From NCBI GenBank assembly GCA_937136025.1, contig CAKZOC010000219.1:1-49898 (forward strand): a stretch of DNA of 49,898 nucleotides. Reading direction: 5' to 3'. Below, piece after piece: positions 47,649-49,898 of this stretch (positions are counted from its first letter, which is position 1; each line of letters opens with the position of its first letter). Source of the DNA: an uncultured Bacteroidota bacterium (GTDB lineage: Bacteria; Bacteroidota; Bacteroidia; Flavobacteriales; Flavobacteriaceae). The notes beneath the pieces were generated by a model. The model was not told where the DNA came from. It was given only the letters and a program-made list of their open reading frames with translations, and made no database searches. The position numbers and the translations under genes are program-made.

Positions 47649-48992
47649 ATGTCTGCCATTGTGATTCAAGCATCGATGTTCCTGCTCAGCCTTTCTCTTC
47701 TGATCGTGCTGCACGAGTTGGGACATTTCCTCCCTGCAAAAGCCTTTAAAACAAGGGTCGAGAAATTCTATCTCTTTTTTGACGTTAAGTTTTCCCTCTT
47801 CAAAAAGAAGATCGGGGAGACGGTTTATGGGATTGGTTGGTTACCGTTGGGCGGGTATGTGAAGATCGCAGGCATGATCGATGAGAGTATGGATACCGAG
47901 GCGATGAGCCAACCCCCCAAGCCCTGGGAATTTCGTTCCAAGCCTGCATGGCAACGCCTGATCATTATGTTAGGAGGGGTGACGGTAAACTTTATAGTAG
48001 CCCTGCTGATCTATATTTTCGCCTCTTTTTACTACGGGGATGCCGATATTTCCACGGCCAGTATTAAGGATGGCTTTTGGGTGACCAACCCGGTATTTAC
48101 AGAACTCGGGGTACAGACCGGAGACAATCTCGTCTCCATAGACGGAGAGGCATATGAGAATTATTCAGATCTGCGGCGTAATATGATTACTGCAGAGCGC
48201 TTCACCCTGGAGCGGGATGGACAACCGATCACCATCGAATTACCCGTCGATTTTTTGGGTAAACTCAGTACGGGCGAAGACCTGAGCTTTTTTGAATTGC
48301 GCGTACCTTTTCTGGTGGGAATGGTCCCTGACACTTCCCACAATGTGCAGGCCGGTTTAGAGAAAGGAGATCTCCTTAAACGCATCGATCAAACCGAGAT
48401 CACCTATTACGATGAGGCGGTTGCCGCTTTGGAGGCAAATAAGGGCCGCGAGGTTCCTGCGGTGGTGGTTCGGGACGGTCGCCCGGTAGATCTGACACTT
48501 AAAATTAGCGAAGACGGTAAATTGGGGATTTATCCCGGAGGTACCTACAAGCAATTCGCGGACATGGGTTATTTTGACATTGTCCAGAAGAAATACGGCT
48601 TTTTCGAGAGTTTTTCCGTGGGGGCCAAGAAGTTCAGCAATCAATTGGGAGGCTACTGGCTGCAGCTTAAGAAGATTTTTACGCCTAGTACAGGCGCCTA
48701 CAAAGGCGTGGGTGGCTTTAAGGCGATTTTTGATATTTTCCCGGATACCTGGAGCTGGCAGCAGTTTTGGAGTATTACAGCGTTTTTGTCCATCATGCTG
48801 GCGGTTTTAAACCTTCTGCCGATCCCGGCACTGGATGGAGGACACGTGATGTTTTTACTCTATGAAATGGTGTCAGGACGTAAACCCAGCGATAAATTTA
48901 TGGAGTACGCCCAGATGGCTGGTTTTTTCATTTTGTTAGCACTTATCGTCTTTGCCAACGGAAATGATATTTATAAGGCACTGACCAAATAA
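47649..48992 (+). CDS. rseP: RIP metalloprotease RseP (site-2 protease)
   Basis: 447 residues from the ATG at 47649. Cuts transmembrane anti-sigma factors and remnant signal peptides within the membrane. Zinc motif HELGH at residues 22-26 in the first helix; a PDZ-like region in the middle (GVQTGDNLVSIDGEAYENYSDLRR) and a second (VQAGLEKGDLLKRID); and the late NLLPIPALDGGH motif that completes the active site. It is a single gene before tRNA-Asn. Confidence 0.95.
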   Translation: MSAIVIQASMFLLSLSLLIVLHELGHFLPAKAFKTRVEKFYLFFDVKFSLFKKKIGETVYGIGWLPLGGYVKIAGMIDESMDTEAMSQPPKPWEFRSKPAWQRLIIMLGGVTVNFIVALLIYIFASFYYGDADISTASIKDGFWVTNPVFTELGVQTGDNLVSIDGEAYENYSDLRRNMITAERFTLERDGQPITIELPVDFLGKLSTGEDLSFFELRVPFLVGMVPDTSHNVQAGLEKGDLLKRIDQTEITYYDEAVAALEANKGREVPAVVVRDGRPVDLTLKISEDGKLGIYPGGTYKQFADMGYFDIVQKKYGFFESFSVGAKKFSNQLGGYWLQLKKIFTPSTGAYKGVGGFKAIFDIFPDTWSWQQFWSITAFLSIMLAVLNLLPIPALDGGHVMFLLYEMVSGRKPSDKFMEYAQMAGFFILLALIVFANGNDIYKALTK

Positions 48993-49009
48993 TTATCCCA
49001 TTTTTTTTG

Positions 49010-49040
49010 TTGGGCAGTTGTTTAGAAACTTTTATATTTG
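49010..49040 (+). promoter_or_regulatory. tRNA-Asn promoter (TTG-N20-TATATTTG)
   Basis: TTG at 49010, a 20-base spacer and perfect -7 TATATTTG (49033-49040), 20 bases before the tRNA 5' end. Confidence 0.65.
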
Positions 49041-49060
49041 CGTCCTCCAAACGGAGACAT

Positions 49061-49134
49061 TCCTCCTTAGCTCAGTTGGTTAGAGCATCTGACTGTTAAT
49101 CAGAGGGTCGCTGGTTCGAGCCCAGCCTGAGGAG
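49061..49134 (+). tRNA. tRNA-Asn (GTT) with an imperfect acceptor stem
   Basis: 74 bases, full cloverleaf by eye: D-arm GCTC/GAGC, anticodon stem TCTGA/TCAGA with loop CTGTTAA (anticodon GTT), variable loop GGGTC, T-arm GCTGG/CCAGC with TTCGAGC. The acceptor 5' strand TCCTCCT faces CTGAGGA, so pairs 1-5 form but pairs 6 and 7 are C-T and T-C. The 3' strand CTGAGGAG matches other bacterial tRNA-Asn whose 5' strand is TCCTCAG. The genome encodes GCA, not a full CCA, after the stem. Confidence 0.9.
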
Positions 49135-49148
49135 CAAAAGCAACGAAG

Positions 49149-49180
49149 CCCATTCTTTTTTTAGAATGGGTTTTTTATTT
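49149..49180 (+). terminator. Intrinsic terminator after tRNA-Asn
   Basis: CCCATTCT (49149-49156) pairs with AGAATGGG (49163-49170) around a T-rich loop, followed by TTTTTTATTT. Confidence 0.85.
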
Positions 49181-49190
49181 GGGATAAGCT

Positions 49191-49283
49191 GGGCGAGAAG
49201 TTTATGCCGACGAATGGAGGTAAGCCCTAGTCGGACAACAAAAAGGTTTTAACTCCTGGGTGTTTCATTCGGGAGTTTTTTAT
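49191..49283 (+). ncRNA. Candidate structured RNA, unit 1, with terminator
   Basis: Begins GGGCGAGAAGTTTATGCCGA (49191-49210), then eight variable bases and a second conserved block (49219-49240; GGTAAGCCCTAG, TCGGACAACA). TGCCGAC can pair with GTCGG-A-CA. It ends in an intrinsic terminator: AACTCCT/GGGAGTT (49251-49277) then TTTTTATTTT. Both blocks recur in unit 2. It may be a small RNA; the flavobacterial Flavo-1 motif is one family to test. Confidence 0.5.
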
Positions 49284-49285
49284 TT
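49251..49285 (+). terminator. Terminator of RNA-like unit 1
   Basis: AACTCCT (49251-49257) pairs with GGGAGTT (49271-49277, one G-T), with a 13-base loop and a following T-rich tract. Confidence 0.75.
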
Positions 49286-49296
49286 TATATGATTAA

Positions 49297-49415
49297 GGGC
49301 GAGAAGTTTATGCCGATATATATTTTTAAGGGAAGCATGACCGTAGAAAATAATTATCGGTAAGCCTTAGTCGGGCAACATAGAAAGAGTTCTCAAAACG
49401 AGGGCTCTTTTTTTT
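49297..49415 (+). ncRNA. Candidate structured RNA, unit 2, with terminator
   Basis: Repeats the 20-base block exactly (49297-49316) and the 22-base block with two changes (49359-49380; C to T, A to G). The middle differs in length and sequence: 42 bases instead of eight, with its own hairpin CCGATA/TATCGG. The flanking conserved helix TGCCGA / TCGG-R-CA is kept. Conserved ends with a variable inner stem are typical of structured RNA. Ends in a terminator. Confidence 0.5.
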
Positions 49416-49417
49416 TG
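49386..49417 (+). terminator. Terminator of RNA-like unit 2
   Basis: AGAGTTCTC (49386-49394) pairs with GAGGGCTCT (49400-49408; two G-T pairs) around AAAAC, followed by eight T. Confidence 0.8.
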
Positions 49418-49659
49418 CTGTAGGTTTTTAATATTTCAGATAATATTTTATGCACCAGCAACGTGGTTAATCAATTTTTATTAAAGCTAGCATCAAATGC
49501 AGCAGCAATTAAATACTTCAGAGAATATCTAATAAGTAACAAGATATGTTTAATCCATGAAATTTATTAATGGATTCAGGAATTTAAAAATCATTCTGTT
49601 GATGATAGTTCAAGTAGAAGGTAGAGGGTAGTTTTAGGAGCTCATCGTTAGTACATATT

Positions 49660-49898
49660 ATGACCAATGAGACTCATGCCGTTTCATGGAATAAAGATGG
49701 TGTCCCTTTTAGTGAGGCTTACGATGATATTTATTATCACCGTACCCAAGGCGCACAAGAAAGCAACTATGTGTTTATTAAAGGTAATGATTTGCCTGCA
49801 CGTTTTGCAGGCGTTAATGATTTCATAGTTGCAGAATTAGGGTTTGGCACAGGGTTAAACCTGCTTTGCTTGCTGCAAACATGGGAGGAGCACGCTCT
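49660..49898 (+). CDS. MnmC/MnmD-like tRNA methyltransferase domain, 3'-truncated, foreign-looking
   Basis: Open to the window end: 79 codons visible. The N-terminal pattern SWNKDGVPFSEAYDDIYYH, GAQESNYVFIKGNDLPARF and AELGFGTGLN matches the methyltransferase half of MnmC, which finishes the mnm5s2U34 modification of tRNA wobble uridine. ELGFGTGLN is the S-adenosylmethionine site. The YDDIYYhr-GxxES-YVFI-GN-LP-RF form is that of proteobacterial bifunctional MnmC rather than the short Bacteroidota MnmD. Codon use and base composition also differ from the rest of the window. AGGAG lies 20 bases upstream, too far to be a normal ribosome site. Confidence 0.75.
   Translation, partial: MTNETHAVSWNKDGVPFSEAYDDIYYHRTQGAQESNYVFIKGNDLPARFAGVNDFIVAELGFGTGLNLLCLLQTWEEHA

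Follow-up and report, generated by a model that had tools for sequence, protein, structure and literature searches.

The window, that is the whole stretch of 49,898 nucleotides that was analysed, carries near its right end a tRNA-Asn(GTT) gene (49061-49135; ARAGORN and Rfam RF00005) followed by two tandem repeat units, all on the forward strand. Upstream of the tRNA a pattern scan found its promoter at 49007-49040 (TTG, spacer, TATATTTG), with a consensus (TTG plus TAnnTTTG) that we take to be the Bacteroidota type, and a terminator scan placed an intrinsic terminator between the tRNA and unit 1 (49145-49174). The repeated blocks and their spacing agree with the original prediction. Block 1, GGGCGAGAAGTTTATGCCGA, of 20 bases, is present in identical copies at 49191-49210 and 49297-49316, and block 2, GGTAAGCCYTAGTCGGRCAACA, of 22 bases, in copies at 49219-49240 and 49359-49380 that differ by two changes; the stretch between the blocks is 8 nt in unit 1 (49211-49218) versus 42 nt in unit 2 (49317-49358).

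Unit 1 begins with a left arm GGGC (49191-49194), the 5′ side of a stem P1, which is complementary to 49224-49227 as judged by the sequence and by covariation in the family. The conserved stretch GAGAAGTTTAT (49195-49205; alignments) leads into an inner hairpin P2 with a short loop (49205-49222), whose pairs T49205-A49222, G-T, C-G and C49208-G49219 are seen in the sequence, the alignment and the covariation. The unit closes with the tail GCCCTAGTCGGACAACA (49224-49240), which in the tail comparison resembles a tRNA-Gln 3′ end from T-loop nt 59 onwards, and a terminator lies 3′ of it (49251-49277). Unit 2 repeats this order, with a left arm GGGC (49297-49300) complementary, through one G.U, to 49364-49367 (sequence and MFE stem), GAGAAGTTTAT at 49301-49311, a P2 with an extended stem and long loop in both the MFE and centroid folds (49311-49362), the tRNA-Gln-like tail GCCTTAGTCGGGCAACA (49364-49380) and a terminator (49382-49412).

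No ORF of at least 60 aa overlaps the window units, in agreement with the earlier exclusion of protein coding, and a pattern scan of 49136-49420 found no TAnnTTTG promoter motif. Terminator-like hairpins with T-runs number four on both strands of 48400-49898 versus 1.5 (sd 1.0) in shuffles. The folding z-scores are -2.70 for unit 1 and -5.09 for unit 2 with the terminators, and -1.20 and -3.38 without them; hence much of the fold signal of unit 1 is its terminator. T-run hairpins do follow each unit, as had been noted, but we read these supposed terminators of the units as the tRNA 3′ flank between units: they recur because the stretch that separates tRNA and unit is such flank, which the array multiplies along with the units. 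A match to Flavo-1 or another known flavobacterial motif had also been suggested as a possibility. Flavo-1 was not among the Rfam matches at E<=1 or E<=10, and no other Rfam family matched the window units above chance.

A point missed in the original prediction emerges from the tail comparison, namely that block 2 duplicates the 3′ end of a tRNA. In the family the right block is such a copy, starting at T-loop nt 59, and the order is left arm, GAGAAGTTTAT, inner hairpin, AA, tRNA copy, with a conserved right junction AA|GYCC in the alignments. Tail, arm, terminator and promoter counts were confined to units, first or distinct ones, for which an upstream tRNA was found, and the unit model leaves out the tRNA tail past its first few nucleotides. 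When compared with the 3′ ends of other isoacceptors, the adjacent tRNA was the best match to the tail in 114 of 125 distinct units, with an identity of at least 0.9 in 100 of the 125. The best other isoacceptor gave a median identity of 0.69 and reached at least 0.9 in 10. The 11 units that fail comprise the window's two, units cut short where an array stops, and tails that additional hairpins interrupt.

The first loci were found by near-exact search with an 18-20-mer from the window, so the conservation of GAGAAGTTTAT is partly by choice. A 19-mer scan of genome contigs gave 22 stretches, 21 of them Bacteroidota-named and one Acidobacteria-named (L049, with no tRNA adjoining); a tRNA stands within 500 nt in front of the unit in 14, less than 300 nt of DNA is present in front in four, and four have no tRNA. 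A covariance model built from 20 units matches 134 of 397 genomes of the window's taxonomic family, a patchy presence; with so many matches to a model of them, the window's blocks are no chance repeat. In a phylum-wide draw it matches 15 of 395 genomes, ten of the 15 lying within the family, the window genome included. In the family set, 138 of 150 units have a tRNA within 700 nt in front, and the tRNAs that carry units include Gln, Thr, Trp, Lys, Gly, Asn, Met, Leu, His, Ile, Ala and Arg. It had been called unusual for a tRNA to be followed by copies in tandem, which holds for most genomes but not for this unit family. Arrays of constant period are common in it, such as one of six copies every 109 nt in G216 and one of three every 110 nt in G295, and some arrays have identical flanks between copies. 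No description of the units was found in the open-licence literature searched. It is well supported that the units make up a genuine family, structured and linked to tRNAs, which the libraries searched do not contain.

Two variations in arrangement were seen among these loci. At eight (L030, L037, L038, L119, L132, L138, L144 and L147) the array ends in a left-half unit, consisting of the arm and GAGAAGTTTAT or less, that runs into unrelated DNA. In G267 the unit follows tRNA-Ile(gat) at a distance of only 19 nt in three copies (L186, L198 and L204), which may lie within rRNA operons.

The left arm changes together with the start of the tail, giving GGGC/GCCC, GGGAC/GTCCC (Thr), GAGAC/GTCTC (Leu, Trp), GGGT/ACCC (Gly) and GGTC/GACC (His). 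Against nt 59-63 of the adjacent tRNA the arm forms 3.93 of five Watson-Crick pairs (55 distinct arm/tRNA combinations at 121 loci, 17 list entries having been dropped), and among 2000 arm/tRNA shuffles the mean was 2.98 and the maximum 3.35. In a 20-row alignment 85.2% of the cells pair and 27 are altered on both sides; shuffles gave 11.7 such cells (sd 3.0), none of 500 reaching 27, and slid structures attained at most 56.7% pairing with nine both-side cells. Two weaker covariation measures were equalled by 10 and 54 of the 500 shuffles. The claim that stem potential is kept between the blocks is thus upheld by covariation in the family alignments. P2 shows 60 wobble pairs (G.U plus U.G) versus one A.C or C.A among 301 Watson-Crick cells (91 one-per-locus rows), and A4 shows 31 versus one, pair counts on A3 and A4 being biased toward structure because the model R1 favours paired arms. 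The wobble tolerance of P2 therefore indicates that P2 is kept as a single-strand fold of the tRNA sense, in RNA or single-stranded DNA. The inner four pairs of P1, with seven G.U versus five A.C, have no wobble asymmetry.

Promoters distinguish the units from the tRNAs in front of them. TAnnTTTG occurs within 60 nt upstream of 74 of 111 tRNAs versus seven of 111 units (4.2 in shuffles), and together with an upstream TTG it occurs at 42 tRNAs versus no units. By a simple rule for calling terminators, one separates tRNA from unit at 67 of 108 loci and none stands in front at 41. In this comparison, from which units with a tail match below 8/10 nt were dropped, the window's among them, P1, P2 and tail identity are 3.84, 3.96 and 0.972 with a separating terminator versus 3.80, 3.93 and 0.961 without one, in a set picked by a model that rewards pairing. 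Because the structure is equal with or without a terminator, selection on a read-through RNA alone is hard to see. The impression of a small-RNA family given by the window is accordingly correct in part: the units are structured, non-coding and tandem and have an RNA-like analogue in E. coli RtT, but their standing as small-RNA genes of their own is weakened by the rarity of promoters and by this equality of structure.

The spacers between neighbouring tRNA genes lengthen with the number of units. Thr-Tyr spacers measure 21-53 nt when unit-free (five loci), 116-262 nt with one unit (16 loci) and 319-333 nt with two (two loci), and the medians of Gly-Thr spacers grow with units from 56.5 nt (14 loci) through 171 (three loci) and 263.5 (two) to 332 (one). 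Each unit adds about 115-150 bp, as judged from spacers of different genera, strain pairs with exact empty and filled sites not having been found for units. At several Thr loci the last tail is followed by AAGTTCTT..., which also occurs in the spacer without units in the window's genome. The sequence that separates tRNA and unit differs from one tRNA to another and in places has a native look.

RtT has been a little-understood, one-locus curiosity of enteric bacteria. At tyrT/tyrV of E. coli K-12 there are four RF00391 units, each of which closes with the final 19 nt of the tRNA, and the end of the annotated rttR RNA is the exact end of the tRNA copy. An arm GGGGAAGGAT (GGGGAAGGGT in the tyrT-tyrV unit) lies opposite ATCCTTCCCC, with a 10-bp pairing in the MFE fold, and is followed by GAGAAG in three of the four units and GAGAAC in one. 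Like the Bacteroidota units, RtT thus stands in tandem behind a tRNA, ends in a tRNA 3′-end copy that starts in the T-loop, and has a left arm complementary to the first bases of this copy, then GAGAAG (GAGAAC in one RtT unit) after the arm, and internal hairpins. The shared GAGAAG carries limited weight, because the likeness was noticed after the fact. The two differ in that the inner hairpins are unlike in sequence and size, and in that the E. coli units are 178 nt long behind one tRNA, whereas those of Bacteroidota are about 100-120 nt with flank behind many tRNAs. The RF00391 covariance model gave four matches of 133-138 bits in the E. coli positive control (L298) and none at E<=10 in 49136-49440 or at E<=0.1 in three unit-bearing loci (L084, L098 and L120). 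Hence the Bacteroidota units are RtT-like in layout and are not RF00391 members.

Our preferred reading, to which we give about half of our confidence, is that the units are minimal insertions at tRNA T-loops rather than free-standing small-RNA genes. It builds on the observed anatomy, the match to the tRNA, the covariation of the arm, the added spacer length and the absence of promoters. It is further favoured by the arrays of constant period, the patchy presence, the wobble tolerance of P2, the genes found in a few arrays and, at the rseP-tRNA-Asn locus, a simpler and a filled site for another kind of mini-insert (L232, L234). Counting against it are the absence of a recombinase or transposase accompanying the units in the DNA examined, a GIY-YIG link seen at four loci, spacer comparisons between different genera, the lack of wobble asymmetry in P1, the annotation of RtT as an RNA product, the flank that differs between tRNAs, the Y1 enrichment described below, and the window's own units, whose tails do not fit the tRNA in front. 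We infer that an ORF-less minimal element would enter the tRNA gene at T-loop position 58/59, leaving the tRNA whole and pushing its old 3′ end downstream, so that a unit would consist of a conserved hairpin and, after it, a displaced second copy of the tRNA from T-loop nt 59 to its 3′ end. Arrays might then grow by repeated insertion or by unequal crossing-over. The functional form would be the fold on the tRNA-sense single strand, in which P1 would hold the displaced tRNA end in a hairpin; the fold may be a structure recognised by a mobilising enzyme, or may stop the spare 3′ end from pairing with the 5′ half of the tRNA. A plain mobile element leaves the tRNA-fitted arm unexplained, which calls for either selection or a guide step. 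With the RtT layout seen in a second phylum, and there behind many tRNAs, an ample natural collection becomes available from which to learn how such repeats arise, how inserts come into tRNA genes that stay unbroken and why the arm varies with the tRNA. For annotators it is also a warning: stems behind tRNAs may be conserved and covary without belonging to free-standing small-RNA genes.

The main rival to the insertion reading is an RtT-like RNA role, which we consider somewhat unlikely. The units would then be functional RNAs made by read-through of tRNA operons and cut out during tRNA processing, the tRNA-like 3′ end and T-arm-like stem being recognised by processing enzymes or regulating tRNA supply. 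The layout shared with an annotated RNA product (rttR), the strand-specific wobble tolerance of P2 and the units that lie within tRNA operons with no preceding terminator (the 41 loci above) all speak for such a role; it is at odds with the terminator that precedes the unit at the other 67 loci with P1, P2 and tail identity equally good, with the lack of promoters before units, with the failure of RF00391 to match and with the lack of units in most genomes of the family. If instead the units were scars left by tyrosine integrases of islands or satellites at tRNA T-loops, each being the attR end that survives decay of the cargo, then a T-loop junction with a copy reaching the tRNA 3′ end would be the expected layout, and the locus with two genes between tRNA-Leu and unit (L273) would fit. 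Scars of different islands would not be expected to share one hairpin behind many unrelated tRNAs with an arm fitted to each, and no integrase was recognised in the four cargo proteins scanned, so we regard this origin as distinctly unlikely. Functionless, plain tandem duplication of tRNA 3′ ends, spread by unequal crossing-over, would account for the arrays of constant period and identical flanks but explains neither why many tRNAs have a common 31-nt hairpin behind them at one junction nor the covariation of the arm; we find it barely credible.

The units may also be compared with known mobile DNA. Integrative elements in tRNA genes use a T-loop junction and carry a copy that extends to the tRNA 3′ end. 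Like these elements, the units have the tRNA 3′-end duplicate at the far side of the insert and the tRNA kept whole, which holds for the family, the window showing the tail of a different tRNA; they differ in being tiny and mostly gene-free and in having a conserved hairpin and a tRNA-matched arm. It had been considered that the blocks might be attachment repeats with no conservation of the stems, and half of this holds: the copy does resemble an attachment repeat, but conservation of the stems is seen. The tRNA fragments left by integration are among the matters treated in PMC9897764. A further candidate is a REP-type palindrome moved by a Y1 (TnpA-REP/RAYT) transposase, for which atypical structures associated with a Bacteroidetes TnpA subclass are reported in PMC6006769. 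The units resemble REPs as short imperfect palindromes that fold on one strand, and Y1_Tnp is somewhat commoner in unit-bearing genomes (69 of 134 versus 87 of 263 others; odds ratio 2.15, P 4.9e-4, not corrected for descent). They differ in that they are not dispersed, standing only in tRNA 3′ flanks of the DNA examined, and have no constant Y1 gene: PF01797 has no match in the window's genome, 65 of the 134 unit-bearing genomes likewise have no Y1_Tnp, and none of 30 Y1 loci holds the unit motif. The hairpin, which we had presumed to be a common Bacteroidota REP, did not prove dispersed in the fetched DNA, its core being found 140 times inside units versus six outside in 1.5 million strand-bases (near chance, 4.3), and a REP origin is already disfavoured and very improbable. 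The Y1 enrichment would fit another mobiliser.

The core sites of integron attC are GTTRRRY and RYYYAAC. The units presumably resemble attC in their nested paired arms, variable end loop and cassette-like arrays, but alignment inspection gave a right junction AAGYCC that is not GTTRRRY, and the target is a tRNA; an attC identity was therefore rejected.

Genes accompany the units at a few loci. A GIY-YIG motif search of the fetched loci (0.95 Mb, overlaps included) found the motif at four loci only, all unit-bearing, and the link is suggestive only, because the loci are centred on tRNAs. The gene lies between tRNA-Asn and unit in L112, L157 and L201 and directly precedes tRNA-Met in L105. In L201 GIY-YIG genes alternate with units at intervals of about 550 nt. 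One protein from each locus was tested, and all four match PF01541. These GIY-YIG genes are single-domain, and L112 and L201 also hold longer displaced tRNA-Asn pieces with other GC-rich hairpins. In L273 (17474-19500) tRNA-Leu is followed by a Peptidase_M78 gene, a DUF4411/PIN gene and then a unit with a Leu tail, which looks like a toxin-antitoxin cassette behind a tRNA. An ISL3 transposase lies inside an array in L274, and no recombinase or transposase constantly accompanies the units in the DNA examined. A 56-kb stretch between two unit pairs in G033, considered as a candidate island, holds many long ORFs and is without clear island ends. A wider view, unlikely though worth stating, would unite RtT and the Bacteroidota units, as two branches, in a single widespread class of selfish inserts that are headed by a hairpin and specialise in tRNA T-loops. 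The arm complementary to nt 59-63 would read or match the target, the carried 3′ end would rebuild the tRNA, small GIY-YIG nucleases would mobilise the inserts, and gene-bearing forms would move nuclease or toxin-antitoxin cargo.

Other inserts were seen at tRNAs. Eight genus mates were examined at the rseP-tRNA-Asn locus, and what follows tRNA-Asn differs in every one. In L234 a different insert is followed by another 3′ end of tRNA-Asn, beyond which comes the flank found directly after the tRNA in L232; this locus therefore accepts more than one kind of small insert. Variable small inserts occur there throughout L232-L239, with a tRNA 3′-end duplicate in some (L234, L238). The Gly(tcc)-Thr(ggt) spacers of L140 and L287 contain short duplicates of the acceptor end of tRNA-Gly, with a different hairpin at their head (GTCGTCACG...CGTGA).

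The window units are atypical in their family, having Gln-like tails though tRNA-Asn stands in front. The tail of unit 1 agrees with a tRNA-Gln(ttg) tail at 14/16 positions (0.875) versus 8/16 for tRNA-Asn, and that of unit 2 at 13/16 (0.8125) versus 9/16, and both fail the test that the tail be best matched by the tRNA in front. A tRNA-Gln that could explain these tails was not found in the window's own genome (G000). The gene is present in all nine genus mates, with no units 3′ of it, and its absence from G000 is probably an assembly gap beside a repeat. The own genome holds, besides the window pair, a third, divergent unit behind tRNA-Leu(tag) on another contig (L083).

To the right of the units the base composition changes, with a GC content of 36% in 49416-49898 (29% in 49416-49659) versus 49% in 1-49135. 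The ORF from 49660 matches MnmC, with E 3.4e-27 in NCBIfam, a score below the full-length cut-off, and E 2.2e-16 to PDB 3pvc; its matches in 31 relatives are all weak. The contig end is possibly foreign DNA or mis-joined, which leaves the conclusions on the unit family untouched.

A search for inverted copies of tRNA 3′ ends within one genome gave best inverted tail matches of 7-11/16, the same as for other tRNAs, and such copies were rejected; the search showed inverted arms around terminators only. For eight of 30 tRNAs (own genome, L062, L063, L070, L076, L077, L078, L080 and L089) an inverted partner of the terminator stretch lies 60-220 nt further downstream (score at least 12), and these partners are a second kind of tRNA-linked palindrome.
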